Shown: in pieces, positions 1-59,381 of the stretch
How the letters are laid out: every line of letters begins with the position of its first letter
Numbering within the stretch: the stretch's first letter is position 1
Assembly: GCF_029626025.1 (NCBI RefSeq)
Contig: NZ_JARUBF010000001.1
Location: 2,046,001 to 2,110,000 of the forward strand
Length of the DNA: 64,000 bases
Origin: Solwaraspora sp. WMMD406
GTDB taxonomy: Bacteria; Actinomycetota; Actinomycetes; Mycobacteriales; Micromonosporaceae
Reading direction: 5' to 3'
Position numbers and translations under genes: made by a program
The notes under the pieces: generated by a model
The model's database searches: none
Seen by the model: the letters and a program-made list of their open reading frames with translations, nothing else
Told to the model about the DNA's origin: nothing

Positions 1-603
1 TGGTCGTACGGCGCCCAGCTGGACTCGGTACGTCGGTTCGTCCAGGCGATCTACGACCACACCGTACCGGGCGGGGTGTGGATCAACAGCGACGTCTGCG
101 GACCGGACGGCCGGGACCGTCCGGTGCTGCTCGACCTCTGCCGTACCGACGGGGCGAATCCGGCGGCTCCCCGTACCGACCTGGCCGCGCTACCGGCGGC
201 GCGGGTGGCGCAGCACGTTCGTGTCCTGTCCACCCGGGCCCGGCTCGACCAGTTCGCGGTCGACTTCGCCTTCCCGACGCCCTATCAGCCGGTGCCCGAC
301 CGGCCCGGCGTGGTCGAGACGACGCTCGGGGCGGCGATGGACTTCCTGACCCGCAAGGACTATCCGGACAACTGGCTGTCGGAGACCCGTGAGCAGTTCT
401 GCGGGCTGGAGTACGCCGACTGGAAGGCGCTGCTGGCCGACGTCGGCTTCGAGGTGGAGGCGGCGAGCGGGCCGTGGCGTAACGACTGGATCGTCACCAA
501 CCGGCTCGACCCGGTGGCCACACTCCGCACCCTGGACGGGGCGGCGATGGAGTGGCCGGTCACTCACGTGTTGCTGGTGGCCCGCCGACCGGTGAACAGC
601 TGA
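1..603 (+). CDS. Class I SAM-dependent methyltransferase-like protein, C-terminal part
   Basis: The frame is open from the first base of the window and closes with TGA at 601-603, so the gene begins upstream and only about 200 C-terminal residues are seen. The stretch WINSDVCGPDGRDRP, preceded by IYDHTVPGG, resembles the late Rossmann strands of class I methyltransferases, where a catalytic-core strand is followed by a loop. The end WPVTHVLLVARRP resembles the final beta strand of the same fold. The SAM-binding motif itself lies outside the window, so the assignment is an inference from the C-terminal fold pattern. The gene converges on the acetyltransferase that follows, with only 18 bases between the stops. 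The substrate cannot be told. Confidence 0.6.
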   Translation, partial: WSYGAQLDSVRRFVQAIYDHTVPGGVWINSDVCGPDGRDRPVLLDLCRTDGANPAAPRTDLAALPAARVAQHVRVLSTRARLDQFAVDFAFPTPYQPVPDRPGVVETTLGAAMDFLTRKDYPDNWLSETREQFCGLEYADWKALLADVGFEVEAASGPWRNDWIVTNRLDPVATLRTLDGAAMEWPVTHVLLVARRPVNS

Positions 604-621
604 GCCGGACGAGGGCGGCGG

Positions 622-1221
622 TCACAGCTGGTTGAACGGCTCGGCGTAGCGGAACGTCCCCGGCGTCGGTGGGTCGGTGCCGAGCACCCGGACCTGGAAG
701 TACCTGCCCCACCGCGGGTCGGGCGCGACGACGCCCAGCGGTTGGCTGGGCCGTAGGCCGAACCGTTGGTAGTAGGCGGGGTCGCCGAGCAGCGCCACCA
801 ACGGCTCGTCCAGGGCTTCGGCCGCGCCGAGAACCGCGTGCATCAGCGCCGTACCGACGCCGCGACCGTGCCGGTCCGGACGTACGGCGAGTGGGCCGAG
901 GCCCAGCACCGGCAGGTCGTCGAGGTACGCCCGGGTGCAGACGACGTGCCCGACGACGTCACCGCCGCCCCCGCTGTCACTCCCGTCTCCGCCGTCACTG
1001 CCGCCTCTGCCTTGGCTGTCGGTGTCGCCGCCGTCGGCACGGTGCTCGACGGCGACCAGGGACAGCGCGGGCAGCCACGACTCGTCGCCCCGTAACTCGT
1101 CCAGCAGGCGCACCTCGATCGGTGGATCCGGCTGCCCCGCCCGCGCGAACGCGGCGGCCACCACCGCACGGACCACCGGCACGTCGGCCGGGCGTTCCCG
1201 TCTGACCAGCATGGTCACCAT
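622..1221 (-). CDS. GNAT family N-acetyltransferase with a low-complexity insert
   Basis: A 199-residue protein of the Gcn5-related acetyltransferase family. The acetyl-CoA pyrophosphate-binding segment is visible as RPDRHGRGVG (about residues 114-123), followed by GTALMHAVLGAAE, and the later ALLGDPAYYQRFGL is the usual GNAT motif B region. It should transfer acetyl from acetyl-CoA to an amine; the acceptor is unknown. Residues 62-88 are an Asp/Gly/Ser-rich stretch absent from typical GNATs, placed between two core strands, probably a surface loop grown from short DNA repeats. Two ATGs nine bases apart (1221 and 1212) could serve as start; longer frames upstream overlap the divergent oxidoreductase and are unlikely. 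It is a single-gene unit. Confidence 0.85.
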   Translation of the reverse strand: MVTMLVRRERPADVPVVRAVVAAAFARAGQPDPPIEVRLLDELRGDESWLPALSLVAVEHRADGGDTDSQGRGGSDGGDGSDSGGGGDVVGHVVCTRAYLDDLPVLGLGPLAVRPDRHGRGVGTALMHAVLGAAEALDEPLVALLGDPAYYQRFGLRPSQPLGVVAPDPRWGRYFQVRVLGTDPPTPGTFRYAEPFNQL

Positions 1222-6795: not shown

Positions 6796-8622
6796 TCAGC
6801 TGAACGCGGTCAGGAACCGGTCCCGGAACGAGTCCATCGGCCACACCGGTGCTTGCGGGTCCGGGCGCAACCCGTCCGGCCAGTCCCACCCGGCGATCTG
6901 GTCCAGCACGGCCTGGTCGCGGGTCACGATGGTGATCGGCACGTCGTGGCTGGCCCCCGGACCGGTCACCACCGGCGCGGGCTGGTGATCGCCGAGGAAG
7001 ACCAGCACCAGATCGTCGTCGTCCTGCGACTCCAGATAGGAGATGATCGTGCTCAGCGAGTAGCCGATCGCCTTCGGGTAGTCCTCCCGTAGCCCGTCCT
7101 CCGCCGACCGGTCGGCCTGGCCGACGGCCATCGCCGTACGGTCGAAGACCGACCCGTCGCGCACCGTGTTCCAGTTGACCAGCTGCGGGATCGGGGTCCA
7201 CGGTGCGTGGCTGGACAGCAACGCCACCTCCGCCATCACCGGCCCGTCGGTGGCCTCCCGCTCGAACCGGTCGAACGCCGACAGGACGTACTGGTCCGGG
7301 ATCGAGGCGAAAGTGAACTTGTCGCCGGCGTACCCCATGTTGCGCGAGTCGTAGACCTGGTCGTAGCCGAAAAACGACCCTTCCGGCCAGGCCCGCGAGT
7401 TGCCGGGGAAGAAACCGGACACCCGCCAGCCGGCGTCGCCGAACGCCCGGGTCAGGGTCAGCCGGTCACTGGCGACCAGGCTGCGGTAGCGCTGCTGGTT
7501 GTCCACCCACAGCCCGGACAGAGTGCTGGCGTGCGCCAGCCAACTGCTGCCGCCCACCGTCGACGAGGTGAGGAAGGCGCTGCGGGACCCGTACCCCTGG
7601 GCGGACAGCCGTCGCGTGCCGTCGTCGAGGACGTCGGCGACGTACGGGGCGAACTCCGGGGCGGTGACCGAGTCGCGGCCGTAGCTTTCGACGAACGCCA
7701 GCAGCACGTCCTTGCCGCGCAGCGCGGTCAGCAGCTCGTCGCCCGGCACGTCGCGGAACGCGTCCACCTCCGCCACCTCGGCGAACTCGTGCCGGTCGTG
7801 CAGGCTGGCGCTGACCTGCAGCGTGTGATCGTAGGCGAGTCGGGCGGTGGCCCGGTCCGCCACCGGCAGCGCGAACGTGAGCGTCCCGTTGTCGTAGACG
7901 GTCACCGTGGTGCCGAGCAGCGCGAACGCCAGCCAGCCGGCGGCCAACGCGCCCACCACGCCCCCGCCGACCCGCCGCCGCTCGGCCAGCAGCCGGGCCA
8001 CCCGCAGCACCGCCAGCACCGCTAGGACCAGCACGGCGACGGTGAGCAGCGCGGCACCGACCGCGGCGGCGACCGCCGCCGGCCGGCCGTAGGAGGCGTC
8101 GACGAACCGGTACGCGTCGGCCAGCAGCCCCACGTCCATCACCGGGTCGAACGGGCGGCCCAGTACGGAGAAGAAGCCCATGTCGGCGACCTTGAACACG
8201 GTCAGCACCCCGAGTACGACGCCGAGGGCGGCCGCCACCGGGACGCGTACCCGGTGCGGCAGCACCAGCAGCACCGCTCCGGCAAGCACCGCCTCCAGTG
8301 GGATCCGGGCGAACACCTGCGGGACCACGAACTCCACCTGGTACGGCAGTGTCAACGCGGCGAGCACGCCGGCCACTGCCAGCACACTGGCCGCCCAGCC
8401 GGCGGTACGGCGTACCCGTGGCCGCCAGCCGCCACCCGGTGGTGTCGGCTCGCTCTCGGTCGTCTCTGGTTCGCTCTCGCTGGTCTGTGGCGGCTTCGCC
8501 TCGCTGGTCTGCGGCTCGTCCCCCGTCGTGTCCGTCTTGCCGGGGTTTTCCGCGTCCGGATCGGTCGTACCCAGGTCCGTCGCGTCAGTGGCGGGCGGGG
8601 CGGGATGCGTCGCGGAGGACAA
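6796..8622 (-). CDS. Membrane sulfatase / LTA synthase-like phosphotransferase
   Basis: About 608 residues. A Thr/Glu/Pro-rich cytoplasmic N-terminus of roughly 75 residues is followed by several hydrophobic segments (WAASVLAVAGVLAALTL, VLAGAVLLVLP, AAVGAALLTVAVLVLAVLAV and WLAFALLG). A periplasmic sulfatase-fold domain begins near LLAFVESYGRDS. The segment SFLTSSTVGGSSWLAHASTLSG fits the nucleophile Ser/Thr region of the alkaline phosphatase superfamily, and LVLVFLGDHQPAP carries the late metal-binding Asp-His pair. Family members transfer phosphoglycerol or phosphoethanolamine, or cleave sulfate esters; the exact reaction cannot be told. TTG 8622 is chosen because GGGAAGG lies about eight bases upstream; TTG 8628 is too close to it. 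Confidence 0.78.
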   Translation of the reverse strand: MSSATHPAPPATDATDLGTTDPDAENPGKTDTTGDEPQTSEAKPPQTSESEPETTESEPTPPGGGWRPRVRRTAGWAASVLAVAGVLAALTLPYQVEFVVPQVFARIPLEAVLAGAVLLVLPHRVRVPVAAALGVVLGVLTVFKVADMGFFSVLGRPFDPVMDVGLLADAYRFVDASYGRPAAVAAAVGAALLTVAVLVLAVLAVLRVARLLAERRRVGGGVVGALAAGWLAFALLGTTVTVYDNGTLTFALPVADRATARLAYDHTLQVSASLHDRHEFAEVAEVDAFRDVPGDELLTALRGKDVLLAFVESYGRDSVTAPEFAPYVADVLDDGTRRLSAQGYGSRSAFLTSSTVGGSSWLAHASTLSGLWVDNQQRYRSLVASDRLTLTRAFGDAGWRVSGFFPGNSRAWPEGSFFGYDQVYDSRNMGYAGDKFTFASIPDQYVLSAFDRFEREATDGPVMAEVALLSSHAPWTPIPQLVNWNTVRDGSVFDRTAMAVGQADRSAEDGLREDYPKAIGYSLSTIISYLESQDDDDLVLVFLGDHQPAPVVTGPGASHDVPITIVTRDQAVLDQIAGWDWPDGLRPDPQAPVWPMDSFRDRFLTAFS

Positions 8623-8638
8623 GATCAAGACCTTCCCT

Positions 8639-8692
8639 GGTACGTCGAGCCTGGTACGTCGAGCCTGGTCGTCGAGCCTGGTCGTCGAGCCA
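8639..8692. repeat. Four short tandem repeats upstream of the sulfatase-like gene
   Basis: Two copies of GGTACGTCGAGCCT are followed by two copies of GGTCGTCGAGCC plus one base, so a 14-bp unit and a 13-bp derivative are each doubled. The array ends about 17 bases upstream of the TTG start of the sulfatase-like gene, in its 5' leader. Confidence 0.8.
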
Positions 8693-8886
8693 GCGGTGCG
8701 CCCGGCCGGGCCGGACTCAGCACGATATCCACACCATCGGACACCTAACAACACGCACGGACCGGCTGGTCAGATCGATCCGCCCGGAGCCGGCCGTACG
8801 GGAGCTGGCGGTGTGCGGGTGACGGACGGAGAACCAGGCATGATGTTGGCAATTCTCAAGCGGGGCATACGGTATCCGGAGGGGCG

Positions 8887-9108
8887 ATGTCGGTGAGCCA
8901 GATCGATGTTGATGACGAGGCGCTGGCCGAGGCAATGCGGCTGTCCGGGGCCAGGAGCGAGAAGGAAACCGTGAACCTCGCGTTGCGGGAGTACGCAGCC
9001 CGACACCGGCGGATCGCCGTACTCCAACACCATGCCGGGGTCGCGCAGGGTTGGGACTACGAAGGCTGGCAGGAGATGCGGGCAGCGGGCAAAGCGCTGG
9101 CTGCGTGA
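8887..9108 (+). CDS. VapB-type ribbon-helix-helix antitoxin (toxin partner truncated)
   Basis: A 73-residue protein with the N-terminal pattern of the VapB / DUF2191 antitoxins: IDVDDEALAEAMRLSGARSEKETVNLALREYAAR is a short strand followed by two helices (the ribbon-helix-helix DNA-binding fold). The C-terminal YEGWQEMRAAG is the region that normally wraps the PIN toxin. GGAGGGG directly precedes the ATG. The family represses its own operon and neutralises VapC. Its stop overlaps a GTG that opens the first codons of a vapC gene, but that gene is cut short, so the antitoxin is an orphan here. Confidence 0.8.
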   Translation: MSVSQIDVDDEALAEAMRLSGARSEKETVNLALREYAARHRRIAVLQHHAGVAQGWDYEGWQEMRAAGKALAA

Positions 9109-9153
9109 CCCGATACCGAGCCGACTCGTCGGCGCTCTGGCACATGCCGCGCG
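9105..9153 (+). pseudogene. N-terminal remnant of a VapC PIN-domain toxin
   Basis: A GTG overlapping the antitoxin stop (GTGA) begins VTRYRADSSALWHM. This matches the opening of VapC toxins, in which the Asp of (A)DSSAL is the first metal-binding residue of the PIN ribonuclease. Similarity stops after about 15 codons and the rest of the PIN domain is absent, so the toxin was deleted while its antitoxin stayed. The remainder to 9288 is non-coding. Confidence 0.6.
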
Positions 9154-9288
9154 CATCGACGTGCCGTACCGTTGGCGATCACCGCGACAGCCGGGTTGCC
9201 GCCGGCCCTGCGGGCCGCCCGGGTCAGCCCGGTTGCCGCGAGCGGCGTCCCGGACTGACCGGTGCGAGTCCCGTCACCCCGCGACCCG

Positions 9289-16561: not shown

Positions 16562-17626
16562 TTAATCGGGCAGGAGGCGATGCTCAGCCAGTCGTGCGGC
16601 GGCTAGCTGGACATGTGCGTCGGTGAACAGACGAGCCTTTCGTAGGCTCCATGCCGTAACGCGGCGGGTGAGCTCTGTGACGTCGCCTGTGGGTGGTGGT
16701 TGCGCTGCGGCGAAATGCACGGTGGCGAGGAGTTCGAGACTGTACGGTGATTCGAAGCCGTCGACGACATCGAGCACCAAATTTAGCTGAGAGAGGCTTT
16801 TGGGATTCGTCTTTACTGACTCGCTGGCGGCTTCGTAGCCGCCGGTTAGGGGTTTGATCGGTGCGAACTCGGTTACCCGCGCTGACCTGTCGCCGAGGCC
16901 GGTGAGGAAATGGCCTTCCAGTGTGGCCAAGACGCGCGTCAGGCTCTCTGAGTACGGTCCGTATCGTCCACGAACGAATTTCAGATTGAGCGGTGCGCCG
17001 GCGATTTGCAGGAGGTAGGCCAACTTCTGCACCTCTAGTTCGCTGATTCCATCGCGGAATTCCTGCAGCCTGGCACGGTCCAGATATGCACCGATCGCAG
17101 CCACTAGCAGGGCGCGTAGGTCGGTCAGTTTGGGGCGTGGCGTGGCGTCGGGCATGCTCTCGGGGGGAGGTGCTCCCTCCGGGGCGAATATCACGGCGCG
17201 GATCTGGGGCATTCTCCGACAGGCATCTTCGATCATTGGCCGGATCTCGGCCCAGTCCAGGCCGCCGTTGCCGCAGCCAAGCGCTGGGATCGCGATGGAG
17301 CCGATCTCGTACCGCGAGACGACATCGACGAGGTCTGCCAGGCCAGCGCGAATGTCGTCTATCTTCGAAGGGTTGCGCCAGTGCTTCTTCGTGGGGAAGT
17401 TGATGATGTATCGCCGAGGGCCGACGATTCCACGATCGACGACGAACATCCGACCCAGTCGGACCTCGCCACGCTTACAGGCAGCCTGATAAGAGCGGAA
17501 ATTCTCGGGGTACGCCCGTTTGAACTGCAGGGCGATGCCTTTGCCCATCACTCCGACCGTGTTGACCGTGTTGACGAGGGCGTCGGTGTCGGCGGTGAGA
17601 AGGTTGCCGTGGCCATCCTCGATCAT
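16562..17626 (-). CDS. darG: DarG antitoxin: DNA ADP-ribosyl glycohydrolase
   Basis: About 354 residues. The N-terminal 150 residues are a macrodomain: GNLLTADTDALVNTVNTVG and VMGKGIALQFKRAYPENF are the ADP-ribose-binding loops typical of DarG, and NFPTKKHWRNPSK contains the Lys of the DarG-type active site. The C-terminal half (from about residue 175) is the DarT-neutralising domain, with ISELEVQKLAYLLQ and RGRYGPYSESL. DarG removes ADP-ribose from thymine in DNA and binds DarT. ATG 17626 gives the family start MIEDGHGNLL; GTG 17635, overlapping the darT stop as GTGA, is the alternative. The pair is translationally coupled and looks intact. Confidence 0.93.
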   Translation of the reverse strand: MIEDGHGNLLTADTDALVNTVNTVGVMGKGIALQFKRAYPENFRSYQAACKRGEVRLGRMFVVDRGIVGPRRYIINFPTKKHWRNPSKIDDIRAGLADLVDVVSRYEIGSIAIPALGCGNGGLDWAEIRPMIEDACRRMPQIRAVIFAPEGAPPPESMPDATPRPKLTDLRALLVAAIGAYLDRARLQEFRDGISELEVQKLAYLLQIAGAPLNLKFVRGRYGPYSESLTRVLATLEGHFLTGLGDRSARVTEFAPIKPLTGGYEAASESVKTNPKSLSQLNLVLDVVDGFESPYSLELLATVHFAAAQPPPTGDVTELTRRVTAWSLRKARLFTDAHVQLAAARLAEHRLLPD

Positions 17627-17631
17627 CCCCG

Positions 17632-18318
17632 TCACCCCCTAGGCCGTTGGAACCCGTAGTACCACGTGGGTACGACAGCCACACGTGAAGTTAGGTAATG
17701 GTCACCCAGCGTGGCTCGCGCTTGGGCCGCATGCGCAGGATCGTACGCTGCTACCTGCTGGAACACAGCCAAGGGCACTTCCCTGTGTACCAGGAACTCC
17801 GCCATCCTGCGGCGCTGGCGGTCCGGGTCCTCCTCGGTGCTGTTCCAACGCTCTGCGTACATCAGCGGCCAGTCCACCATGCTGTTCAAGTCATCAAGGT
17901 TAGTCGTGAACGTGGTGGCTGCGTTGGCGGCGTTGCCGTCGGTCGCGACCCATGCCAGGCCGGCGTCGACCACGGCCCCGACTGTCGCGGCCAGGTAGAC
18001 AAGCTGACGGTCGCCGCCCGCGTACCGTCCAGGGATGCTGTCACGGTGGTCGCAGGCAATCCGATACATCATGGGCGAGCGCGGGGCGAAGTAGAACGGA
18101 ACGTAGTCCCCAACGTAGCCGCGCGGACCGATCGGAATTTGTCGCCGGCGGCGGGAGTCCTTGATCGCTGGATCACCGACCTCTGTACGGGTGAGGCCGG
18201 CACGGGCGGACACATCGCAGGCCAACCGACCCGTCGCGGCGATGATTGGAAGGTTTTCCACGTGGGTGAAGTGCAAGATCCATCGATCTCGTACGGACGT
18301 CGATGCTGCTGAAGACAT
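17632..18318 (-). CDS. darT: DarT toxin: DNA thymine ADP-ribosyltransferase
   Basis: A 228-residue DUF4433-family enzyme. The family signatures are HFTHVENLPIIAATGRLACD at the N-terminus (the NAD-binding His region), YVPFYFAPRSPMMY in the middle and MAEFLVHREVPL towards the end, where the Glu is the expected catalytic residue. DarT transfers ADP-ribose from NAD+ to thymidine in single-stranded DNA and stalls replication; this is family knowledge. GGAGG lies about nine bases upstream of the ATG. All key motifs are present and no frameshift is seen, so the toxin should be active. It is the first gene of the darT-darG operon, which starts just downstream of two tRNA genes and may also act in phage defence. 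Confidence 0.93.
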   Translation of the reverse strand: MSSAASTSVRDRWILHFTHVENLPIIAATGRLACDVSARAGLTRTEVGDPAIKDSRRRRQIPIGPRGYVGDYVPFYFAPRSPMMYRIACDHRDSIPGRYAGGDRQLVYLAATVGAVVDAGLAWVATDGNAANAATTFTTNLDDLNSMVDWPLMYAERWNSTEEDPDRQRRRMAEFLVHREVPLAVFQQVAAYDPAHAAQARATLGDHYLTSRVAVVPTWYYGFQRPRG

Positions 18319-18409
18319 CCGTGCCGGACCTCCGCTTATGTGACTGCGAGTACGGGAGTCTATCGGAGGGTGCAGACGGTGCTTGTGCCTGAACTAGACG
18401 ATGATGGTG

Positions 18410-18482
18410 TGCCCTCGGGACGAGTCGAACGTCCGACCCCGTGATTCGTGGTCACGTGCTCTGTCCACTGAGCTACGAGGGC
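18410..18482 (-). tRNA. tRNA-Arg(ACG)-like gene with unusual C33
   Basis: Read on the minus strand it folds into a complete cloverleaf: acceptor GCCCTCG/CGAGGGC, D arm GCTC...GAGC, anticodon stem CGTGA/TCACG, T arm GGACG-TTCGACT-CGTCC. The seven-base loop CCACGAA gives anticodon ACG (arginine), but position 33 is C instead of the near-universal U. The CCA end is not encoded. It may be functional with an atypical loop or a tRNA-like gene no longer used in translation. Confidence 0.7.
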
Positions 18483-18517
18483 GTGCTGGTCGGTGCTACT
18501 GGCACTGACCAGTGTCG

Positions 18518-18599
18518 TGTGCCCGGGGAGAGTCGAACTCCCATGCCTTGCGGCACCGCGTTCTGAGCGCGGCGTGTCTACCGGTTCCACCACGGGCAC
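18518..18599 (-). tRNA. tRNA-Leu(CAG)
   Basis: A class II tRNA with acceptor GTGCCCG/CGGGCAC, anticodon stem CCGCG/CGCGG, loop CTCAGAA (anticodon CAG), a long variable arm TGCCGCAAGGCA and T loop GTTCGACTC. All stems pair. It lies 35 bases from the neighbouring tRNA, and the spacer contains a small inverted repeat (CTGGTC/GACCAG). Confidence 0.92.
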
Positions 18600-18950: not shown

Positions 18951-19088
18951 TCAACTCGACCTGCGCTGCCCCGCCTGGTCGCCGCGATCGTCGGGCGGGC
19001 CGGCTACCCGAACAGGGTCACTGTCAGCCAGCATGGCGTCGAACTCGTCCTCGGTCACGTCGAACTCAGCCAGCTCATCGTGCTGCAT
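18951..19088 (-). CDS. Possible 45-residue acidic protein
   Basis: An acidic small frame MQHDELAEFDVTEDEFDAM followed by LADSDPVRVAG. This pattern resembles short acidic proteins that accompany antitoxin or regulator genes, but no partner is adjacent and the ribosome site (GGTGG) is weak. It is listed as a possibility only; it could be the stub of a larger lost gene. Confidence 0.25.
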   Translation of the reverse strand: MQHDELAEFDVTEDEFDAMLADSDPVRVAGPPDDRGDQAGQRRSS

Positions 19089-19219
19089 GCCACCAGCATC
19101 GCACTCGGCCGTCGACCAGCACAGTGCGCAACCGCCACGTGCCATCCTCGATGTCTACCTTGGGATTAGAAGAAGATCATGGATGGCTGGCCAGGAGCTT
19201 TCGCCCCTGGTGTCAGCCC

Positions 19220-19282
19220 GTCCGTGACTGTCGGCCAACGTCCGCCCCGGCCGGGTGCCTTGGCTGTACGAATGGTGTACGG
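19220..19282. repeat. Dispersed repeat, copy 2
   Basis: A degenerate second copy of the 16076-16140 sequence: GTCCGTGACTGTCGGCC through GCTGTACGAATGGTGTACGG. Unlike copy 1 it is not followed by a recognisable gene. It suggests that a segment carrying this leader was duplicated and its gene lost. Confidence 0.5.
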
Positions 19283-19390
19283 CGAGGTCTGGGCGATGGG
19301 CAGAAATCGCCACTCATCTACTCGGCGGTCGATTCGTCGCTGTTGCCGTCGTCGAACCATGACGGGGCGGTGCTGCATCCGACGTAAAGG

Positions 19391-19530
19391 GTCGACTCGT
19401 CCGTCCCACCCCGGATCAGCGCGGCGATCAAGGCGCTGATCTGCACAAACTTTCCGTCGTCGATGGTCGTTCATGGTCAACTTCTGTCGTAAACTGACGC
19501 CCTGGAGACGCCCTGACGCCCTGATCTTGG
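19391..19530. repeat. Left flanking direct repeat of the accessory element
   Basis: About 140 bases running from GTCGACTCGTCCGTCCCACC to GCCCTGATCTTGG, repeated in the same orientation at 26389-26520. The outer parts are nearly identical (CGTCCGTCCCACCCCGGATC in both; CTGGAGACGCCCTGA near the end of both), while the middle has diverged. The right copy lies just beyond a tyrosine recombinase remnant, so the two copies may be old attachment-site arms. Confidence 0.6.
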
Positions 19531-19962
19531 ATGGTCCGGGCGGTGCCGACGGCGGCCGGGGACGCAGCCGTGCGGGTACGGACCCGGCGCGATCGGTGTC
19601 GGTGGCAAGCCAGTCCGGGTTCTGGACTGGCGCGGCGGCCGGAAGCCCCAACCCCGACGGCGGCCAACCCCGCCGGTTTCCGGACCTCCTTGCCGCCGTC
19701 GACCACAGGGCGGGCGGGGCTTCGAACCCCAAACCCGCGTAAGGGCTGTGGATCGGGTCGAACCGGGTATATCGATGCGCTGACCTGCGGCGGGTTCCTT
19801 GAAGCCTCTCGGCTTCTCGCAGCCGCTTCGGCCATCGTTTGTACTGGCGTTGTCGTAGCTGATCTTCAAGTGCTCGTTTGTCGCTGTTGGACGGGCTTGA
19901 ACGATGACGTGATCCCGACTCGTAAATTCGGTGATTGTGCGCTTGTCGTCAATGATGGTGGC

Positions 19963-22611
19963 GTGACTCGGGTGTTTCCTCGTCGCCGGCGGCGGCGGAC
20001 CGTCGCGGTTGTGGTCTTAGCTGTCGCCTGTGGTCTGGCGTCGGTGATCGTTTGGTGGAATCCGTGGGGGTGGGGGCTGCCTCGGTTCGGCTGGGAGGGC
20101 ACGGAACAGGCTGGCTGGATCGCGGGGATTGCCAGCGGTGTGCTGTCGTTGGTAGCACTCGTCGACGGGTTCATGGCGCGGGGCGTCAAGCCTGGTTCAT
20201 CGTCGGTACTGGCGGGAAGCGCTGTACGAGTCGGTCGGGTCCCGGAGCGGGCGGCGTGGTTTCAGGATCGGCCTGCGCGGGTGGATCTTGCGCGCGCGGC
20301 AACAGCGGGTCGGACGGCGGTGTTGACGCAGGTGTTGTCGGGGATGGGCGGGGTGGGTAAGACCCAGTTAGCGGCGGAGTTCGCACGCCGGTTGGATCGG
20401 GATCGGGAGGTGGATGTGCTGGTGTGGGTGACGGCGTCGAGTCGTGACGCGATCGTCGCCCGCTATGCCGACGCTGCCCGCGTGGTGGGTGCCGCCGTGG
20501 CGGGGGACGGGGACGGTGAGGCTGCGGCCAGCCGGTTCGTGTCGTGGTTGGAGCGCACGTCGAAGCGGTGGCTGGTCGTGTTGGACAACCTCGACAGCCC
20601 TGGTGACGCTGCGGACTGGTGGCCGCCGAACAATCGCAGAGGTCGGACGGTGGTGACGACTCGTCGCCGTGATCCGGTGCTGCATACGGACGGTCGTGTC
20701 CTGGTCGACGTTGACGTGTTCAGCGCGGATAACGCCGTCGACTACCTCGATGGTGCGATCGGTACCAGTGGTGACCAGGATGACGACCTAACCGCGTTGG
20801 CCGCTGAGCTGGGGTATCTGCCGTTGGCGTTGGCGCAGGCGGCCGCGTTCATCCGGGACCGGGGCATCGACCCTGTCGGCTACCGGACCCGGCTCGCTGA
20901 CCGGCGCAAGAGGTTGGCTGATCTTGTCCCGCCTGATGATGCCTTACCGGATGGGCACCGGGCGACGGTCGCGGTCACCTGGTCGTTGTCGATCGACGTG
21001 GCGGACAGTCATCCGCCGGCCGGGCTGGCCCGGCATGTGCTGAACCTCGCCGCTGTGCTGGATCCGAACGGCATTCCCGAGGCCGTGTTCACCGCCGGTC
21101 CGGCCGTGGAGTATCTCGCAGACCGCAGTGGGCGGAACGATCTGGCCGTGGATGAGGTGCGAGACGCGCTGCGCAACCTGCACCGGTTGAGTCTGCTCAC
21201 CCACGATCCGCAGGCGGGTGTGGTCCGTGTCCACGCCATGGTGCAGCGGGTCACCTGCGACGCACTCGACTCGGTCCACCTCGCTGCGGTCGCCCGGAAC
21301 GTCGCTGATGCCCTTTTGGCTAGCTGGCCAGCCATCGACCGGGGCCACGGAGCTACTCAGAGCTTGCGGGCCAACTCTTCCGCTCTACGGATGGCCAGCG
21401 GTGATGCCCTACTTCGCCCCGGCGTCCACTCCCTACTGTTCCAAGCGATCAACAGCCTCGGGAACACGGGACAAGTTGAGTCCGCCGTAGCCGCGTTCGC
21501 AGAGTTGCTCACTGACTCTTTGCGGGTGCTGGGGCCGGATCATCCCGACACCCTGACCACTCGTAGCAATGTCGCCGGCTGGCGGGGTCGAGCGGGTGAT
21601 GCCGCCGGTGCGGTGACCACCTTCGAGGAGTTGCTCACTGACTCTTTGCGGGTGCTGGGGCCGGATCATCCCGACACCCTGACCACTCGGAACAACCTCG
21701 CCGGCTGGCGGGGTCGAGCGGGTGATGCCGCCGGTGCGGTGACCACCTTCGAGGAGTTGCTCAATGACTCTTTGCGGGTGCTGGGGCCGAACCATCCCGA
21801 CACCCTGACCACTCGCAACAATGTCGCCGGCTGGCGGGGGGAGTCGGGTGATGCCGCCGGTGCGGTGACCACCTTCGAGGAGTTGCTCAATGACTCTTTG
21901 CGGGTGCTGGGGCCGGATCATCCCGACACCCTGCGGGCCCGGAACAACCTCGCCGGCTGGCGGGGTCGAGCGGGTGATGCCGCCGGTGCGGTGACCACCT
22001 TCGAGAAGTTGCTCAATGACTCTTTGCGGGTGCTGGGGCCGAACCATCCCGACACCCTGACCACTCGGAACAACCTCGCCGGCTGGCGGGGTCGAGCGGG
22101 TGATGTCGCCGGCGCGGCGAGCGCGTTCGCAGAGTTGCTCAATGACTCTTTGCGGGTGCTGGGGCCGGATCATCCCGACACCCTGCGGGCCCGGAACAAC
22201 CTCGCCGGCTGGCGGGGTCGAGCGGGTGATGTCGCCGGCGCGGCGAGCGCGTTCGCAGGGTTGCTCAATGACTCTTTGCGGGTGCTGGGGCCGAACCATC
22301 CCGACACCCTGACCACTCGCAACAACCTCGCCTTCTGGCGGGGGGAGTCGGGTGATGCCGCCGGCGCGGCGAGCGCGTTCACAGGGTTGCTCAATGACTC
22401 TTTGCGGGTGCTGGGGCCGGATCATCCCGACACCCTGCGGGCCCGCAACAACCTCGCCTCCTTGCGGGGTCAAGCTGGTGATGCCGCCGGTGCGGTGACC
22501 ACCTTCGAGGAGTTGCTCACCGACTCTTTGCGGGTGCTGGGGCCGGATCATCCCGACACCCTGCGGGCCCGCAACAACCTCGCCTACTGGCAACTACAGA
22601 GCAGCCTCTGA
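19963..22611 (+). CDS. Membrane-anchored STAND (NB-ARC) NTPase with TPR repeats
   Basis: About 882 residues from GTG 19963. Two hydrophobic segments (residues about 12-31 and 50-70) suggest membrane anchoring. An NB-ARC-type ATPase follows with P-loop GMGGVGKTQ (about 127-135), Walker B WLVVLDNLD, sensor-like RGRTVVTTRRRD and the GLPLAL-like YLPLALAQAA. A winged-helix region carries VRVHAMVQRVT. The C-terminus (from residue 514) is nine 42-residue TPR units of the LRVLGPDHPDTL type. STAND proteins sense ligands with such repeats and oligomerise on NTP binding; members act as regulators or antiphage sensors. No effector gene is adjacent. The start is uncertain: no ATG is suitable, and GTG 19910 is an alternative. 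Confidence 0.82.
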   Translation: MTRVFPRRRRRRTVAVVVLAVACGLASVIVWWNPWGWGLPRFGWEGTEQAGWIAGIASGVLSLVALVDGFMARGVKPGSSSVLAGSAVRVGRVPERAAWFQDRPARVDLARAATAGRTAVLTQVLSGMGGVGKTQLAAEFARRLDRDREVDVLVWVTASSRDAIVARYADAARVVGAAVAGDGDGEAAASRFVSWLERTSKRWLVVLDNLDSPGDAADWWPPNNRRGRTVVTTRRRDPVLHTDGRVLVDVDVFSADNAVDYLDGAIGTSGDQDDDLTALAAELGYLPLALAQAAAFIRDRGIDPVGYRTRLADRRKRLADLVPPDDALPDGHRATVAVTWSLSIDVADSHPPAGLARHVLNLAAVLDPNGIPEAVFTAGPAVEYLADRSGRNDLAVDEVRDALRNLHRLSLLTHDPQAGVVRVHAMVQRVTCDALDSVHLAAVARNVADALLASWPAIDRGHGATQSLRANSSALRMASGDALLRPGVHSLLFQAINSLGNTGQVESAVAAFAELLTDSLRVLGPDHPDTLTTRSNVAGWRGRAGDAAGAVTTFEELLTDSLRVLGPDHPDTLTTRNNLAGWRGRAGDAAGAVTTFEELLNDSLRVLGPNHPDTLTTRNNVAGWRGESGDAAGAVTTFEELLNDSLRVLGPDHPDTLRARNNLAGWRGRAGDAAGAVTTFEKLLNDSLRVLGPNHPDTLTTRNNLAGWRGRAGDVAGAASAFAELLNDSLRVLGPDHPDTLRARNNLAGWRGRAGDVAGAASAFAGLLNDSLRVLGPNHPDTLTTRNNLAFWRGESGDAAGAASAFTGLLNDSLRVLGPDHPDTLRARNNLASLRGQAGDAAGAVTTFEELLTDSLRVLGPDHPDTLRARNNLAYWQLQSSL
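21502..22611 (+). repeat. Nine near-identical 126-bp tandem repeats encoding TPR units
   Basis: Eight complete 126-bp units and a ninth partial one lie head to tail in frame within the STAND gene. Long blocks, such as the DNA for DSLRVLGPDHPDTL, are identical between units. Differences alternate between a few variants (PDHPDTLTTR, PNHPDTLTTR, PDHPDTLRAR and GRAGD or GESGD). This mosaic implies recent expansion or gene conversion rather than old divergence. Confidence 0.95.
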
Positions 22612-22862
22612 TCTGCGCCGCAGACGCGTTTTATGCGACGGCAACGGTCTCTCGCCGCAGGCCGAGATAACACGGCGCGGCGCGTCCGGCGGTTGCCCGG
22701 CGGTGACGGTCGTTTCCCGCCTGGCCGCGTAGCGGTCCGTGGCGGCTTGCCGCCGGGCGGTGTTCCGCCCGTGCGTCGCGCTGGGCGCGGCGTCTTGATC
22801 CAATACAGATCTATTGGGACTGCGTGATTTCCGCGTTTGACCGTTGGGCGTGACCGAGATGG
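22612..22862. other. Non-coding stretch between the STAND gene and the IS256 remnant
   Basis: About 250 bases with high G/C and several short inverted segments (for example GGCGGCTTGCCGCC) but no gene with coding character. No clear terminator with a T tract follows the STAND gene. Confidence 0.4.
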
Positions 22863-23066
22863 TTAGATGGTGATCCGGTCGCCGTAGGCGAGGATCAGGG
22901 CGTTGAGGGCCCCGCCCCAACCGTAGACCCGGCCAGTGATGCTCCCTCCCCTGCGTTTCTGCTGGACGACGAGGTGAATGACCTTCATCGAGGCCTGCTC
23001 GGTCGGGAAGTGCCCACGTCGGCGGGCGGCCTGACGAATCCGTGCTCGGTGCGTTGGTTCGGTGGA
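22863..23066 (-). pseudogene. C-terminal remnant of an IS256 (mutator) family transposase
   Basis: About 67 codons show the conserved end of IS256-type transposases: ARIRQAARRRGHFPTEQAS, then MKVIHLVV and, after a short variable part, YGWGGALNALILAYGDR. The family end is normally of the form GHFP(N/T)E...LYL...W..ALN..A..FGDR. Everything upstream of this segment, including the DDE residues, is missing. It lies four bases from the left end of the IS21 element and overlaps the opposite strand of the interrupted recombinase. Confidence 0.75.
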
Positions 23067-23122
23067 CCGCTGTCGGGGTACTCGTTGGAGTGCAGAGGTA
23101 GGTACGGCTGATCTTGCAGAGG

Positions 23123-23383
23123 TCAGGTGCTGTGCTGGGGGCTTGGTAGGTCGTGGTGGGTTGCGTTTTGCAGGCGTAGGCGGGTGAGGCCGAGCATGTC
23201 GATCAGCCATCCGGGTCCGCCGGTGATGCCGCGGGCGCGTAGGAGGATGTCGACCTCGTGGTGGGTCGCCGGTCCGGTGTTGGCGAGGAAGTCCTCGCAG
23301 ATCTGGAGCAGGAGTTGCAGCAGGTCGCCGTGGTTGGTGTCTGTGGTGGTTGGTGAGTCGTCCGGGGTGGCCGGGGTGGGCAT
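23123..23383 (-). CDS. Small accessory protein of the IS21 element
   Basis: An 86-residue frame whose ATG overlaps the istB stop (TGATG). It is rich in Thr and Pro at the N-terminus, followed by LLQLLLQICEDFLANTGPATHHEVDILLRARG and GWLIDMLGLTRLRLQ, probably helical. Because it is coupled to istB and ends inside the terminal repeat region, it belongs to the element. I do not know its function. Confidence 0.6.
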   Translation of the reverse strand: MPTPATPDDSPTTTDTNHGDLLQLLLQICEDFLANTGPATHHEVDILLRARGITGGPGWLIDMLGLTRLRLQNATHHDLPSPQHST

Positions 23384-24144
23384 CAGGCGACGTTCTCGAT
23401 GGCGGTGAGGCGGTTCTTGAGCCGGTAGCTGGGGCCGTTGATCGGGACGACGTCGCAGTGGTGCAGGAGCCGGTCGAGGATGGCGGTGGCCAGGACCTCG
23501 TCGCCGAAGACCTGGCCCCATTCGCCGAAGCCCTTGTTCGAGGTCAGCAGGGTGGAGCCCTTTTCGTAGCGTTTGGAGATCACTTGGAAGACGAGGTTGG
23601 CCTCGGGGCGTTCGAGGGGCTGGTAGCCCACTTCGTCGATGACCAGGACGGTGGGGCGTGGGTAGGTCTGCAGCTTGCGGGCCAGCCGGCCGATCGCGTC
23701 GGCGGCGGTGAGGTGGCGGACCATGTCGTCGAGGGTGGTGAAGTAGACGGTGAATCCGGCTCGGCAGGCGGCGACCGCGAGGGCGACGGCGATGTGGGTC
23801 TTGCCGACGCCGGGCGGGCCGAGGAGAGCGACGTTGGCTTTGGCCTGCACGAACGCGAGGGTTGCGAGGTCACGGACTTTGCGGGGGTCCAGGTCGGGTT
23901 GGAAGCTGAAGTCGTAGTCGTCGAGGGTCTTGTGGTGCGGCAGCTTCGACAGGCGTAGCCCGGCGCGGAAGCGGCGTTCGTCGCGGACGGCGAGTTCCTC
24001 TTCCAGGACGAGGTCGAGGAACTCCAGGTAGCCCATGGCCTCGGTGTCGGCCCGGCCGGTGAGTTCCCGCAGCGTCTTGGCCAGGTGGGGCAGGCCGAGT
24101 TTGGTGGCGCTGGCGTGGATGCGGTTGGTGACCAGCTCACTCAC
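23383..24144 (-). CDS. istB: IS21 IstB helper ATPase
   Basis: A 253-residue AAA+ ATPase of the IstB/DnaC type. It has Walker A GPPGVGKT, Walker B TVLVIDEVGYQPL, and the typical IstB segments VYFTTLDDMVRHL and STLLTSNKGFGEWGQVF (sensor 1). IstB oligomerises on target DNA and activates the IstA transposase; this is family knowledge. Its ATG overlaps the istA stop (ATGA). The frame is complete, so this half of the transposition machinery looks functional. Confidence 0.93.
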   Translation of the reverse strand: MSELVTNRIHASATKLGLPHLAKTLRELTGRADTEAMGYLEFLDLVLEEELAVRDERRFRAGLRLSKLPHHKTLDDYDFSFQPDLDPRKVRDLATLAFVQAKANVALLGPPGVGKTHIAVALAVAACRAGFTVYFTTLDDMVRHLTAADAIGRLARKLQTYPRPTVLVIDEVGYQPLERPEANLVFQVISKRYEKGSTLLTSNKGFGEWGQVFGDEVLATAILDRLLHHCDVVPINGPSYRLKNRLTAIENVA

Positions 24145-25584
24145 TTCGAGACGTCCTTCAGGTGTGGGCGGTTGGTGAACGGGCTGGCCGCAGCGATCTG
24201 CTCGTAGACCGACAGCGGCCGGGCCTCGACGGCGATCTGGGCGGCGGCGGCCCGGTTGAGCAGGGCTTGCAGCGGTCCCTGGCCGCTGTCGTGGCGGGCC
24301 GGTCGGCGTGTGGTCGGCTGCCCGCCGTCGGGGTCGCCGGTGGTGACGGCACGGGTGTGTCCGTCGGGCAGTCCGTCCCAGTGGGCTTCGTCGACGACGC
24401 GGGCGCCTCGGCCCACGGCCCGTTGGTGCGTGGCGAGCAGGGAGGTGCCGTCCAGGCCGGGCGCGGTGGCGTGGATGGTGATGGTGGCGGCGGTCGCCCG
24501 GACCTCCACGAGCTGGCGGTGGCGGACCCGTCGGGCCGGCACGGAGTAGAGGTTGCCGGCGTAGGCGACCAGGCAGTCCTTGCCGACGTGCCGCAGATGC
24601 CGGTCGGCGACCACATACGCCCTGGCCGGGACCGGTCGCAGCGCGGCGTGGTCCCGGACCGCCCGCACGCCGATGATCTCGCCGTGGGTGCGGTGTCGCA
24701 CGGCCCGCCGCTGCGGAACCCAGGCCAGGAACGTGGCATCGAGTTCGGCCAGCGACGCAAACGCCCGTCCGGCCAGGACGTGATCACGGACGATGGTGAC
24801 CTGCCGTTCGACCCGCCCTTTGCCGGTCGGCCGGTATGCGGCAAGCACATCGATGTCGAAGTCGTAGTGTCCGGCGAAGGCGACCGCTTCCGGGTGCAGT
24901 GGAACCGCCAGGCCCGGGGCGACGTGCCGGCGGACCACGGTCTTGGTCCGGTCGTAGACGATCGCCCCGGGAACCCCGCCCGAAGTGCGCGAACGCCCGC
25001 CGGTGACACTCCCAGAACGCGGCCAGGTCCTGGCTGGTGGTGAAGCAGCAGAACGGATCCCGCGAGTACGACAGCGCCATGTGGAACGAGTACACCTTCG
25101 GAATCCCGACGTGAGCCAGGATGCCGCCCTCGTCACCCCAGTCCACCTGCGCCTGCGCACCCGGAACGACCTCGAACCGGCGATGCAGCCCCGCCAGCTG
25201 ATCCGGGCTGATCCCCAGCTCCGCGGCGATCCGGGGACGGGCCTGCTGCAGATACAGCTTCACCCGCTGGTAGTTACCGGTGAACCCGTACTGCTCGACC
25301 AGGCGTTCATGGACCACCGTGCCCTTGAGCAGCAACTCCGCCCGCAACCACGCATCGACCACATGCGCGAACACATCGATCAGCTGCCCACGAGCCGGCC
25401 GCGCCCGAACCGGCGGCACCACCTCGCCGCTGCCAGCAGCCAGGTACTTCTTCACCGTCCGCCAGTTCAGACCCGTCTCACGGGCGATCTCCGAGACACT
25501 CGCACCAGCCTCGTGCAGCGCCCGGAACCGACGCACGTCCAGCCACCGCTGCTCATCCAACGCCCTCACCGCCAGCCGTCCCAC
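24141..25584 (-). pseudogene. istA: IS21 IstA transposase, frameshifted
   Basis: The N-terminal half (about 200 codons from 25584) holds a helix-turn-helix, VSEIARETGLNWRTVKKYL, and the catalytic-core start QAQVDWGDEGG (first DDE Asp). Near 24985 the frame changes and the protein resumes as VPGAIVYDRTKTVVRRHV and continues to a normal C-terminus (LSVYEQIAAASPFTNRPHL). The joint reads CACTTCGGGCGGGGTTCC; removing one G restores AHFGGVPGAIVYDRTKTVV. The change is a single-base insertion in a G run, either a real inactivating mutation or a sequencing error. Confidence 0.85.
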
Positions 25585-25704
25585 GCCGGTCCGATCACGA
25601 CCCGGGCAGCCTCACCCCCAGCCACCCGCAGACGACGGACAAACGGTGCGCGCCTCTGCAAGATCAGCCGTACATAGCTCTGCACTCCAGGCCGTACCCC
25701 GACA

Positions 25705-26315
25705 ACCGCCGACCAGGTTTCGGCAATCCGGTCCGGTCTCGCGCCGCGTCACCGGCCGATTTTCAACCTCGGTGCCGGGTGTGGGCTGCGTCAGGGCGAG
25801 ATCTTCGGCATCGGCGTCGATGATCTCGACCTGGATGCCGGCTGGGTGCATGTCGTACGTCAGGTCAAGCGGGTCCGGTCCCGGCTGGTGTTCGGTCTTC
25901 CGAAGAACGACCGGGATCGCCGGGTGCCGCTGCCGGCGTCGGCCGTCCGGGTGCTGCGGGAGCACCTGGTCGTCTTCAAGCCGGTCACGATCACCTTGCC
26001 GTGGGAGGACCCGTTCAAGGGCGACCCGGTGGCGGTGCCGCTGGTGTTCACCACGACGCGGGGAACGCGCTGAACCGGGCGACGTTCGATGGCAAGAGCT
26101 GGCAGCCGGCGGTCGAGGCGGCGGGCATCGTGCCGACCAGGGCGACGGGGATGCACGATTTGCGGCACGCAGGCCCCAGTTCACGCTGCGGGTGTACACG
26201 CATCTGATGCCGGCCGGCGAGGAGCGGACCCGACGCGCTGTTCGAGGACGACGCAGGGAAGGGCGGCGAAGGCGACGACGGCGGGGACGTCTCGGATGAC
26301 CCGGACGCCCTGTAG
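25705..26315 (+). pseudogene. Tyrosine recombinase (integrase) interrupted by the IS21 element and decayed
   Basis: Joining 23056-23070 to 25710 onward, with one ACCGC copy, gives ALVRWTADQVSAIRSGLAP and then FNLGAGCGLRQGEIFG, the box I region of actinobacterial integrases with its catalytic Arg. It continues through VPLPASAVRVLREHL and, after a frameshift near 26070, FDGKSWQPAVEAAGI and GMHDLRHA. The segment between DLRHA and FTLRVYTHLMP, about 30 residues with the LGH motif, is deleted; the nucleophile Tyr survives in RVYTHL. Another shift precedes the end DDPDAL at TAG 26313. It cannot be active. It lies 73 bases from the right flanking repeat, as integrases lie near att sites. Confidence 0.82.
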
Positions 26316-26388
26316 ACGCCCTGAGGGGCCTCGGTGGGGGTGTTCGTGCAGCTCAGCGGGGGTGCGGGTGCGAGAATCCGGCGTACAG

Positions 26389-26520
26389 GTCGACCCCGTC
26401 CGTCCCACCCCGGATCAGTACGCCGATCAAAGCGCTGAGCTGAGCGGACTCCTGTCGTCGATGGTCATTCACAATCAATTTTCGTCGTCATCTGGCACCC
26501 TGGAGACGCCCTGATCTTGG
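26389..26520. repeat. Right flanking direct repeat of the accessory element
   Basis: About 132 bases, GTCGACCCCGTCCGTCCCACC-like start (one base longer than copy 1 here) to CCTGATCTTGG, matching 19391-19530 in the same orientation. By eye about three quarters of positions agree, with the best match at both ends. Together with the adjacent recombinase remnant this supports a bounded, now immobile element of about 7 kb. Confidence 0.6.
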
Positions 26521-26546: not shown

Positions 26547-26891
26547 TCATGAGGTGACTTGATAGCGAGCCAGCATCGACACGATGGTTTCGACGCGGGC
26601 GGTCAGGGCCTCGCCGGCCGGGTGATGGATTCGTACCGAGGTGATCGTGGAGCCGGGGTCGTTGGCCAGCTCCAGGCGGAGTGCGCTGGTGCCGATGAGC
26701 GGATAGGCGTACCACCGGTGCGGGTCGTCGGTGTCGGTGGCGTCGAGTCCGAATGCGATGGCGTCCCAGTCCCAGTCGTCGGCCTCGTAGTAAACCAGTT
26801 CGGCGAGCGACTCGATCAGGGCGCGGACATTCGTCGTGAGAACCCAGCCGTCGGTGGTGGCTGATGGGCTCAGCTCGCCGTCGGTGCTCAT
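26547..26891 (-). CDS. Hypothetical 114-residue acidic protein
   Basis: A compact acidic protein with good third-position G/C. It has an N-terminal helix TTNVRALIESLAELVYYEADDWDWD, beta-rich RWYAYPLIGTSALRLELAND and SVRIHHPAG, and a C-terminal helix LTARVETIVSMLARY. No signal peptide or membrane segment is seen. The layout resembles small immunity-like or adaptor proteins, but I do not recognise the family. It lies just outside the right flanking repeat, so it belongs either to the host flank or to a later insertion. Confidence 0.7.
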   Translation of the reverse strand: MSTDGELSPSATTDGWVLTTNVRALIESLAELVYYEADDWDWDAIAFGLDATDTDDPHRWYAYPLIGTSALRLELANDPGSTITSVRIHHPAGEALTARVETIVSMLARYQVTS

Positions 26892-27190
26892 CCGGTGAGG
26901 GTAGGCCGGGCAGTCGGAAGCTCGGACCGCGACGGCGGCCGACCCCGGAGATCGAGCGGCGGCGGTTGACGAGGCCGCACGGCACCTGCCGACTTAGACC
27001 TGATCAGCGGCGAGTGTCACTACCTGACCGGGACGATTCCCCGCCGCCGAGCTCGTCCGGGTAGCGCTGGACGTGCGGGTCGCGGCCGCCCGGCTCATCT
27101 CTTGAGATGGCCGCCCCTGCGGATCTTTGCCAGGCTGGGGTGCCAATCCATGCCGGTGGACAGGCTGCCGATACCGGCTACGGTCGTAGC
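26892..27190. other. Gap without a supported gene
   Basis: About 300 bases between the divergently oriented hypothetical gene and the phd-like antitoxin. Frames are short and lack coding bias. The last 60 bases, before ATG 27191, must hold the antitoxin promoter. Confidence 0.4.
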
Positions 27191-30534: not shown

Positions 30535-30628
30535 CGCTGGTGTTCCTCCCAGGTTTCGATGTCTCCATCAAACCCGGTGCGGGACATGGTCTCTGACCTG
30601 CGGTTGTCAGTCCGTGTGAGAGATCAAG

Positions 30629-30701
30629 TGCGCCCGGTAGGGTTCGAACCTACGACCTTGGGATTAGAAGTCCCCTGCTCTATCCGCTGAGCTACGGGCG
30701 C
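30629..30701 (-). tRNA. tRNA-Arg(TCT)
   Basis: A cloverleaf on the minus strand: acceptor GCGCCCG/CGGGCGC, D arm GCTC...GAGC, loop CTTCTAA with anticodon TCT, T arm GTAGG-TTCGAAC-CCTAC. The first anticodon-stem pair is G-A, the rest pair. It forms the right border of the accessory region. Confidence 0.92.
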
Positions 30702-59020: not shown

Positions 59021-59381
59021 AACCAAGCTGGCCCTGAGTACGACACCGCCGGGAGTGGCCCGGTGGCAGCACGTGGAGCCGACCAGAAGACCCGCGTACG
59101 CGGGTAGGTGGCTGCGAAAGACCCGCGTACGCGGGTAGGTGGCTGCGAAGCGTGAACCCGGCACGGCAACGCCGGCCAGACCGGGACCGTCCCATCGCAA
59201 GGCGGGACTACCCGCCGCTCGGACACGTGCGCGGCCCGTCACCACGGGCGGCCAGAGGGCCTCTGGCCTCGGCAGGTAGCCGGGCGGCAACGGCTCGCTA
59301 ACCACACCGCAACATCACGGGCGACACTGCCGTAACAACCTCTACCTACGGTTGTCTCTAGTCTATAGAGAAGGGAGTGAC
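59021..59381. promoter_or_regulatory. Long leader region of the ABC operon with two identical palindromes
   Basis: No gene is supported in these 360 bases. At 59090-59105 and 59121-59136 the perfect 16-bp palindrome ACCCGCGTACGCGGGT occurs twice, 31 bases apart, each followed by AGGTGGCTGCGAA, so the whole 31-bp unit is duplicated. G/C-rich stem candidates follow (CGGGACTACCCG, GGCCAGAGGGCCTCTGGCC). I cannot match it to a known riboswitch class. The end has AAGGGAG before ATG 59382. Confidence 0.5.
59355..59371. promoter_or_regulatory. AT-rich inverted repeat TCTCTA-N5-TAGAGA at the ribosome site
   Basis: A perfect six-base palindrome sits 11 bases upstream of the ABC ATPase start and abuts the AAGGGAG ribosome site. 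The pattern resembles GntR-type operators, but no regulator gene is in the window. Confidence 0.4.

Follow-up and report, generated by a model that had tools for sequence, protein, structure and literature searches.

Direct repeats around a decayed element of Solwaraspora sp. WMMD406 as probable attachment-site modules of elements targeting the RNase P RNA gene

A 64,000-nucleotide stretch of the Solwaraspora sp. WMMD406 chromosome (hereafter, the window) contains two direct repeats of about 140 bp that enclose a STAND NTPase gene, transposase material and a broken tyrosine recombinase gene. We consider it very probable that these repeats are attachment-site (att) modules, in each of which a core copied from the 3' end of rnpB, the gene for RNase P RNA, is followed by the left arm of an actinomycete integrative and conjugative element (AICE) that targets this gene. 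The target was unexpected: the att core is the end of rnpB, yet the window copy occupies a tRNA-Arg(tct) hotspot, where it represents a dead rnpB-type AICE with the STAND gene as cargo, lodged between remnants of a tRNA-Arg(tct) element. Beyond this locus, rnpB is probably a general hotspot for conjugative elements in the Micromonosporaceae, one that two diverged integrase clades exploit in opposite polarities and that each insertion leaves restored. In this reading, it exchanges with the tRNA-Arg(tct) target when a near-identical backbone swaps its integrase, and accumulates stacks of up to five elements, with att modules also occurring elsewhere in the chromosome. Sequence comparison directly shows where the repeats come from, that the integrase family is linked to rnpB, that the core covaries with the host gene, that elements form a tandem array and that elements with different integrases have a backbone in common.

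Repeats built on the end of rnpB

Comparison of the window with itself aligned positions 19377-19443 with 26376-26442 at 81% identity and 19456-19516 with 26454-26514 at 82%. A preliminary description of this DNA, made from the sequence alone, had placed direct repeats around the STAND gene, the transposase material and the recombinase; this arrangement is confirmed, although the bounds need to be shifted by about 13 bp to the left. The recombinase stop lies 60 bp from the resulting bound at 26376, in agreement with the 73 bp from 26389 given there. When the left repeat was searched against its own 7.16-Mb genome, the right copy was recovered at 80% identity (E = 3.7e-27), together with a third copy 843 kb away (C1:2915525-2915665, 82% identity to the left copy, E = 1.4e-32), both matches being far beyond chance. 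The third copy is the 3' end of a full-length rnpB gene (C1:2915133-2915550; RF00010, 288.7 bits). An Rfam scan of the window detected no rnpB at the gathering score; only the last ~27 nt of the gene are present, twice.

With the core defined by alignment to rnpB of the window's genome and relatives (G000, G004 and G009), each repeat resolves into a core, made of the terminal ~27 nt of rnpB and a further ~15 nt, and a left arm of ~100 bp that ends in GACGCCCTG boxes (Table 1). The window contains 11 such boxes where 1.96 would be expected, and six of the 11 are at the repeats and the recombinase end. A 20-kb stretch that includes the intact relative in genome G004 has 7 where 0.57 would be expected, six of them at its att ends. 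By analogy with pSAM2 and pACPL, as portrayed in passages of PMC3364876, the boxes may serve as arm sites. Two other identities for the repeats were considered and rejected. The right repeat folds no better than shuffled sequences (z = -0.33) and the window holds no rnpB match at the gathering score, which speaks against a structured RNA in its own right, and ARAGORN placed no tRNA at the window repeats or in the rnpB loci scanned, which speaks against a tRNA-associated att site.

Elements and integrases at rnpB

The intact relative lies in G004, one of six sister species examined (G001 to G006). There, a 13,947-bp element separates rnpB from the sequence that directly follows rnpB in G006. 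Because two G006 segments (-682..17 and -28..257) match either side of this element, the rnpB site of G006 is exactly empty. The element encodes a tyrosine recombinase (PF00589 Phage_integrase, 68.8 bits), a RepSA replication initiator (PF20199, 323.8 bits, cut-off 34), an FtsK/SpoIIIE-type translocase of the TraB kind (PF01580 FtsK_SpoIIIE, 35.4 bits, cut-off 24) and a GntR regulator, and is an AICE as judged by this predicted gene content. The integrase stop falls within ~100 bp of the core, as befits a site-specific recombinase beside attP, and the att direct repeats share a 30-bp identity block. The usual, albeit non-defining, location of the att core in a tRNA 3' end is replaced by rnpB. 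The native rnpB of the window's genome is accompanied by a remnant of its own, comprising a left arm (86%) and HAD and GntR genes with 92% DNA identity to G004; a pattern scan found no second core there. Separately, G001 harbours two full-length rnpB genes (L040, C9:3713988-3714406, and L041, C9:1359414-1359832; 290 and 274 bits), one with the conserved upstream flank and the other with the sequence that follows rnpB in G006.

A search of 300 genomes of the family with the G004 integrase (E at most 1e-90) returned 87 places in 75 genomes, and rnpB was located in 78 genomes for the linkage count. Among integrases of at least 66% identity, 30 of 36 share the strand of rnpB and lie downstream of it at a distance of less than 27 kb, with five on another contig and one far away. 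The 55-65% class comprises 31 integrases. Of these, 13 are found less than 100 kb downstream on the rnpB strand, five as members of a single tandem array that extends to 79 kb and eight no farther off than 16.2 kb; another 13 are on a different contig and five far away. None of the 15 integrases of 45-54% identity is near rnpB (eight on another contig, seven far), and all five of those below 45% are on the strand opposite to rnpB, no more than 113 bp from it. The latter five form one clade (Shimodaira-Hasegawa-like approximate likelihood ratio test, SH-aLRT, 100) in a quick tree with SH-aLRT support only and a very long outgroup branch, used solely for this tight group. In three of them the rnpB end recurs 13.7-16.6 kb off as a second, exact copy of 22 nt; the stretches available for the other two, 12.8 and 2.2 kb long, contain no such copy. 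A diverged integrase clade thus uses rnpB in opposite polarity. Its members (L207-L211) share 41-44% identity with the query and are located 74-113 bp from the rnpB 3' end.

The core itself follows the integrase. It was detected within 1.5 kb downstream in 20 of 30 loci at a threshold of 22/27, shuffled cores reaching at most 19/27 in 600 trials, and, in a set of named genomes that overlaps the 300, in 23 of 40 loci at 21/27 or better, the maximum of 400 shuffled controls being 20. The named genera that carry it are Micromonospora, Actinoplanes, Pseudosporangium, Jidongwangia, Asanoa, Catellatospora and, most weakly, Actinocatenispora (21/27), all of which we take to be Micromonosporaceae. At three other integrase loci of the family (L080, L081 and L129), what follows is another sequence common to the three, AAGTCGGCGAACAGG..., which may be a further target.

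In 18 of 18 delimited elements, the second core reproduces the last 24 nt of the genome's own rnpB (24/24 or 23/24), and this holds where rnpB differs between genera (G079, G095 and G211). These elements measure 9.6-18.3 kb from core to core, and tblastn with the G004 proteins identified an integrase in 18, rep in 14 and tra in 16. A pattern scan of 52 genomes paired two cores of a single contig, no more than ~32 kb apart, in 37 genomes by hand count, and yielded no pair with the reversed control pattern. Elements also stack: in G079, five follow one another head to tail, with cores at 0, 16068, 32008, 48079, 64084 and 80153 bp from rnpB. Twelve of the 18 elements repeat the core alone, whereas in the other six (G009, G079, G176, G214, G314 and G319) the left arm also appears after the second core, as expected from the stacking of a further element or its remnant.

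The preliminary description took the window repeats for the two arms of a single element, attL and attR, a model that accounts for the integrase stop 60 bp from the right repeat and for element genes between the repeats. The repeats are not simply two arms of one element, because the exact identity between the ends of 12 single relatives spans 16-52 bp, none of them repeating the whole 140 bp, and because the remaining, outer ~100 bp are the element's own left arm. The two copies moreover match G004 (85-87%) better than they match each other (80-82%), and we regard the one-element model as improbable.

Core copies also occur away from rnpB in other genomes. Among seven examined, three carry core and arm over 124-170 bp (G256, G014 and G153), a fourth (G281) has an integrase end 66 bp away, and G211 has only a tra homologue 9.4 kb off. 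The remaining two (G256 at 147856, and G142) have nothing beyond the core, apart from a 32-bp arm-like match at one of them. Because they lack an element gene or a long arm, these two would suit a reading of the repeats as dispersed rnpB pseudogene fragments, or as a small mobile repeat unrelated to the integrase. The arm and integrase end at the other loci, and the linkage between core and integrase across loci, make that explanation very improbable indeed.

A fossil element at tRNA-Arg(tct)

The window element sits in a block bounded by conserved chromosomal sequence. The tRNA-Arg(tct) gene is matched at 98.7-100% over 74-78 bp in G001, G002, G004 and G005, at 93.6% over 94 bp in G003 and at 96.6% over 119 bp in G006, and the block that follows it is kept in all six sister species. 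On the other side, window positions 8029-8783 are present in G001, G003, G004 and G005, and a segment at ~9170-9263 in all six, forming in G002 and G006 the start of a longer match; the preceding 0.6-1.1 kb examined in these two genomes showed no match to window 8000-9174. In G004 and G005, only ~0.3 kb, free of window element sequence, separates the small chromosomal gene at the left border from tRNA-Arg(tct). G002 joins ~19107 to 26419, retaining part of the right arm, and G006 joins ~19010 to 26519 at a common GGGCCG, so that both look like deletion derivatives of the window locus rather than virgin sites. The proposal of a decayed integrative element with its integrase beside an att site was right, and related genomes are without the element.

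Table 1 Features of the window element and its borders, in window coordinates
Feature	Position	Strand	Evidence
Small chromosomal gene, 5' part and upstream region	19006..19159	-	83% over 155 bp to G004
tRNA-Arg(tct)-element end remnant: tRNA anticodon-loop core, then element arm	19157..19284	+	96% over 129 bp to G001 element
Left att core: rnpB 3' end + ~15 nt	19377..19420	+	rnpB alignment (G000, G004, G009); RF00010 at third copy
Left arm of rnpB-type element, three GACGCCCTG boxes (19496, 19507, 19515)	19421..19523	+	
Predicted cargo gene, STAND NTPase (NB-ARC, DUF7779, TPR array of 126-bp units)	19531..22611	+	Pfam, NF040586
Conserved inner segment of AICE left end	19598..19692	+	80% to G009; 80% over 82 bp to G001 tRNA-Arg element
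Second conserved inner segment of AICE left end	22671..22818	+	88% to G004, 75% to G009, 78% to G001 element
IS21-family insertion with intact istB and an istA divided between two overlapping frames	23061..25714	-	62-bp inverted ends; IstB_IS21 347 bits; rve/HTH
rnpB-type tyrosine recombinase remnant, truncated and frameshifted	25699..26315	+	tblastn with G004 integrase
Two GACGCCCTG boxes, integrase side of core	26304..26323	+	Two at matching place in G004
Right att core: rnpB 3' end + ~15 nt	26376..26418	+	rnpB alignment
Left arm of second rnpB-type element, probably the older one; G002 retains part of it	26419..26514	+	
114-codon gene	26547..26891	-	No Pfam or NCBIfam match; 83% paralogue at G002 rnpB
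C-terminal integrase scrap of tRNA-Arg(tct) element	26945..26988	+	89% over 45 bp to G001 integrase end by tRNA-Arg(tct)
tRNA-Arg(tct), hotspot gene	30628..30701	-	ARAGORN

G001 carries a 16.3-kb element in tRNA-Arg(tct), whose outer end is preceded by a 41-bp copy of the 3' half of this tRNA gene. Both ends of the G001 element match the flanks of the window element, which is thus enclosed by fragments of a tRNA-Arg(tct) element. A 5,284-bp tra-rep region is common, at 91.8% identity, to this G001 element and the one at rnpB in G004. Their Rep and Tra proteins are 94-96% identical and their integrases only 29%; they are one backbone with integrase and target exchanged.

Between the repeats, little of the conjugative element survives. 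Homology to the integrase begins only at the right end of the IS21 insertion, its first half being absent; the remnant is 93% identical to residues 218-334 of the intact G004 protein (94% in DNA over 465 bp), after which a frameshift and the loss of the LGH-box segment follow. This broken integrase was the only match when the G004 proteins were searched by tblastn against positions 13001-34000, where neither rep nor tra was found, and the window element consequently lacks the full, intact set of int, rep and tra. The STAND frame, predicted to be its cargo, is open over 1026 codons from 19531, with a true start probably at 19.9-20.2 kb, and its predicted product matches NF040586 (FxSxx_TPR, FxSxx-COOH system TPR protein; 454.7 bits, cut-off 300). 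PADLOC offered no model matching it. A regular role as cargo in this element family was rejected, since tblastn with residues 226-620 found no relative in the 34 other stretches searched.

The most likely reason for a repeat length of ~140 bp, judging from these alignments, is that two stacked and diverged rnpB-type elements share a ~43-bp core. In live members of the family, the tyrosine recombinase would integrate the element by recombining attP with the terminal ~27 nt of rnpB. The gene would stay functional because the core carries its own end, in keeping with the core copies and full-length rnpB genes observed. A new element would then insert at the core of an older one, a process of accretion that yields the order seen in the window (flank, core, first left arm, STAND gene, integrase, core, second left arm), which, with the STAND gene in the place of cargo, is also that of the stacked relatives. 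Two separate elements, and not one identical pair that has decayed, are indicated because each window copy is closer to the rnpB-side end of the G004 element (87% over 19377-19689; 85% to core and left arm over 26373-26514) than to the other; the integrase-side copy of G004 in turn matches the right core region of the window at 92% over 119 bp, core included. Later, IS21 and frameshifts would have wrecked the integrase; with Tra and Rep also gone, a fossil with an open STAND frame was left.

The accretion step taken alone is somewhat favoured, and a different route to the same locus deserves consideration. A circular rnpB-type AICE, or a dimer, could have recombined homologously with a resident tRNA-Arg(tct) AICE through the backbone common to both and so have entered it, in which case the right-hand succession of integrase, core and left arm would be an unused attP. 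The backbone shared by the G001 and G004 elements would make such a capture feasible, and the ends of a tRNA-Arg element do flank the window element. A single crossover of a monomer, in contrast, leaves one core rather than two, and the left core lies ~90 bp from the tRNA-Arg arm instead of at a backbone junction. We therefore view homologous capture as possible but rather unlikely.

Several observations weigh against an origin of the window repeats, and of the family at large, from AICEs that target rnpB. At the window itself, the two cores differ in five alignment columns, and the 92 bp at 19285-19376 are unplaced, apart from one 49-bp match in G014. The RepSA and TraB proteins of G004 score below the NCBIfam equivalog cut-offs (22.6 of 700 and 23.9 of 800). 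Among the 18 delimited elements, four are without a detected rep and two lack a detected tra, while identity is as low as 29-33% in four of the tra matches. The one distant integrase of the closest class, in G276, has 70% identity. Finally, 17 of the 40 named loci have no core within the DNA examined and 10 of the 30 loci of the first count none within 1.5 kb, of which seven have one at 1.5-1.9 kb in the pattern scan, two (G293 and G276) have none nearby and G233 fell outside that scan.

Further features of the neighbourhood were recorded. The STAND TPR array (21358-22665) is built of units of exactly 126 bp, and when eight 300-bp windows were compared with a reference one, similarity was 85-93% for six and 66-70% for the outer two, which suggests recent expansion. 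A transposase C-terminal scrap, judged by eye, lies left of IS21 on the minus strand (22863-23060). Paralogues of the 114-codon gene adjoin the rnpB core in G001 and G002. A DarTG toxin-antitoxin pair (16562-18318; DarT 219 bits, DarG 408 bits) ends beside tRNA-Arg(acg) and looks like a further tenant of the hotspot, because it is missing from the matching place in G002 and directly adjoins tRNA-Arg(tct) in G003. The tRNA-Arg(acg) and tRNA-Leu(cag) genes (18409-18599) lie inside the inserted block and are present at this location in G000, G002 and G006; they were not found there in G001, G003, G004 and G005. A Transposase-2 RNA (RF03015, 64.4 bits) occupies 59147-59212.

rnpB among known integration sites

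At the tmRNA (ssrA) sites of prophages and genomic islands, the 3' end of a structural RNA gene acts as attB and is restored by the insert. The rnpB site resembles them in this use of a structural-RNA 3' end and differs in that the RNA is that of RNase P. The integration-site classes named in the portions of island surveys at hand are tRNA/tmRNA, coding and intergenic only. No description of rnpB as an attachment site was found among the open-literature papers listed, as represented by titles, abstract starts and selected passages; where rnpB or RNase P comes up in these passages, it has a different role, and supplementary tables, which were outside the search, may name rnpB.

The gene of an essential ribozyme would extend the list of structural-RNA integration sites beyond tRNA and tmRNA, and it is a natural and conserved place to insert vectors in antibiotic-producing Micromonosporaceae. 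It would also provide a clean case of target switching via integrase exchange, a single genus having both targets and the two integrases. Whether integration affects RNase P RNA at its 3' end, in its expression or in its processing becomes testable as well.

AICEs, their accretion and their integrase swaps are already known from PMC3218068, PMC3364876 and PMC9513070. With AICEs of the pSAM2/pACPL type, as outlined in passages of PMC3364876 and PMC3218068, the G004 element shares the att-tra-rep-int-att order, a tyrosine recombinase, RepSA, an FtsK-type Tra, GntR and repeats near attP; it differs in that attB is the rnpB 3' end and not a tRNA gene, and the window copy further lacks tra and rep. 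Streptomyces AICEs undergo accretion and integrase swaps at tRNA-Arg, tRNA-Val and rlmN, according to the consulted sections of PMC9513070. As portrayed in those sections, they resemble the elements described here in stacking several per site and in combining the same backbone with a different integrase and target, whereas here one target is rnpB and the remnants of both types are interleaved at one locus.

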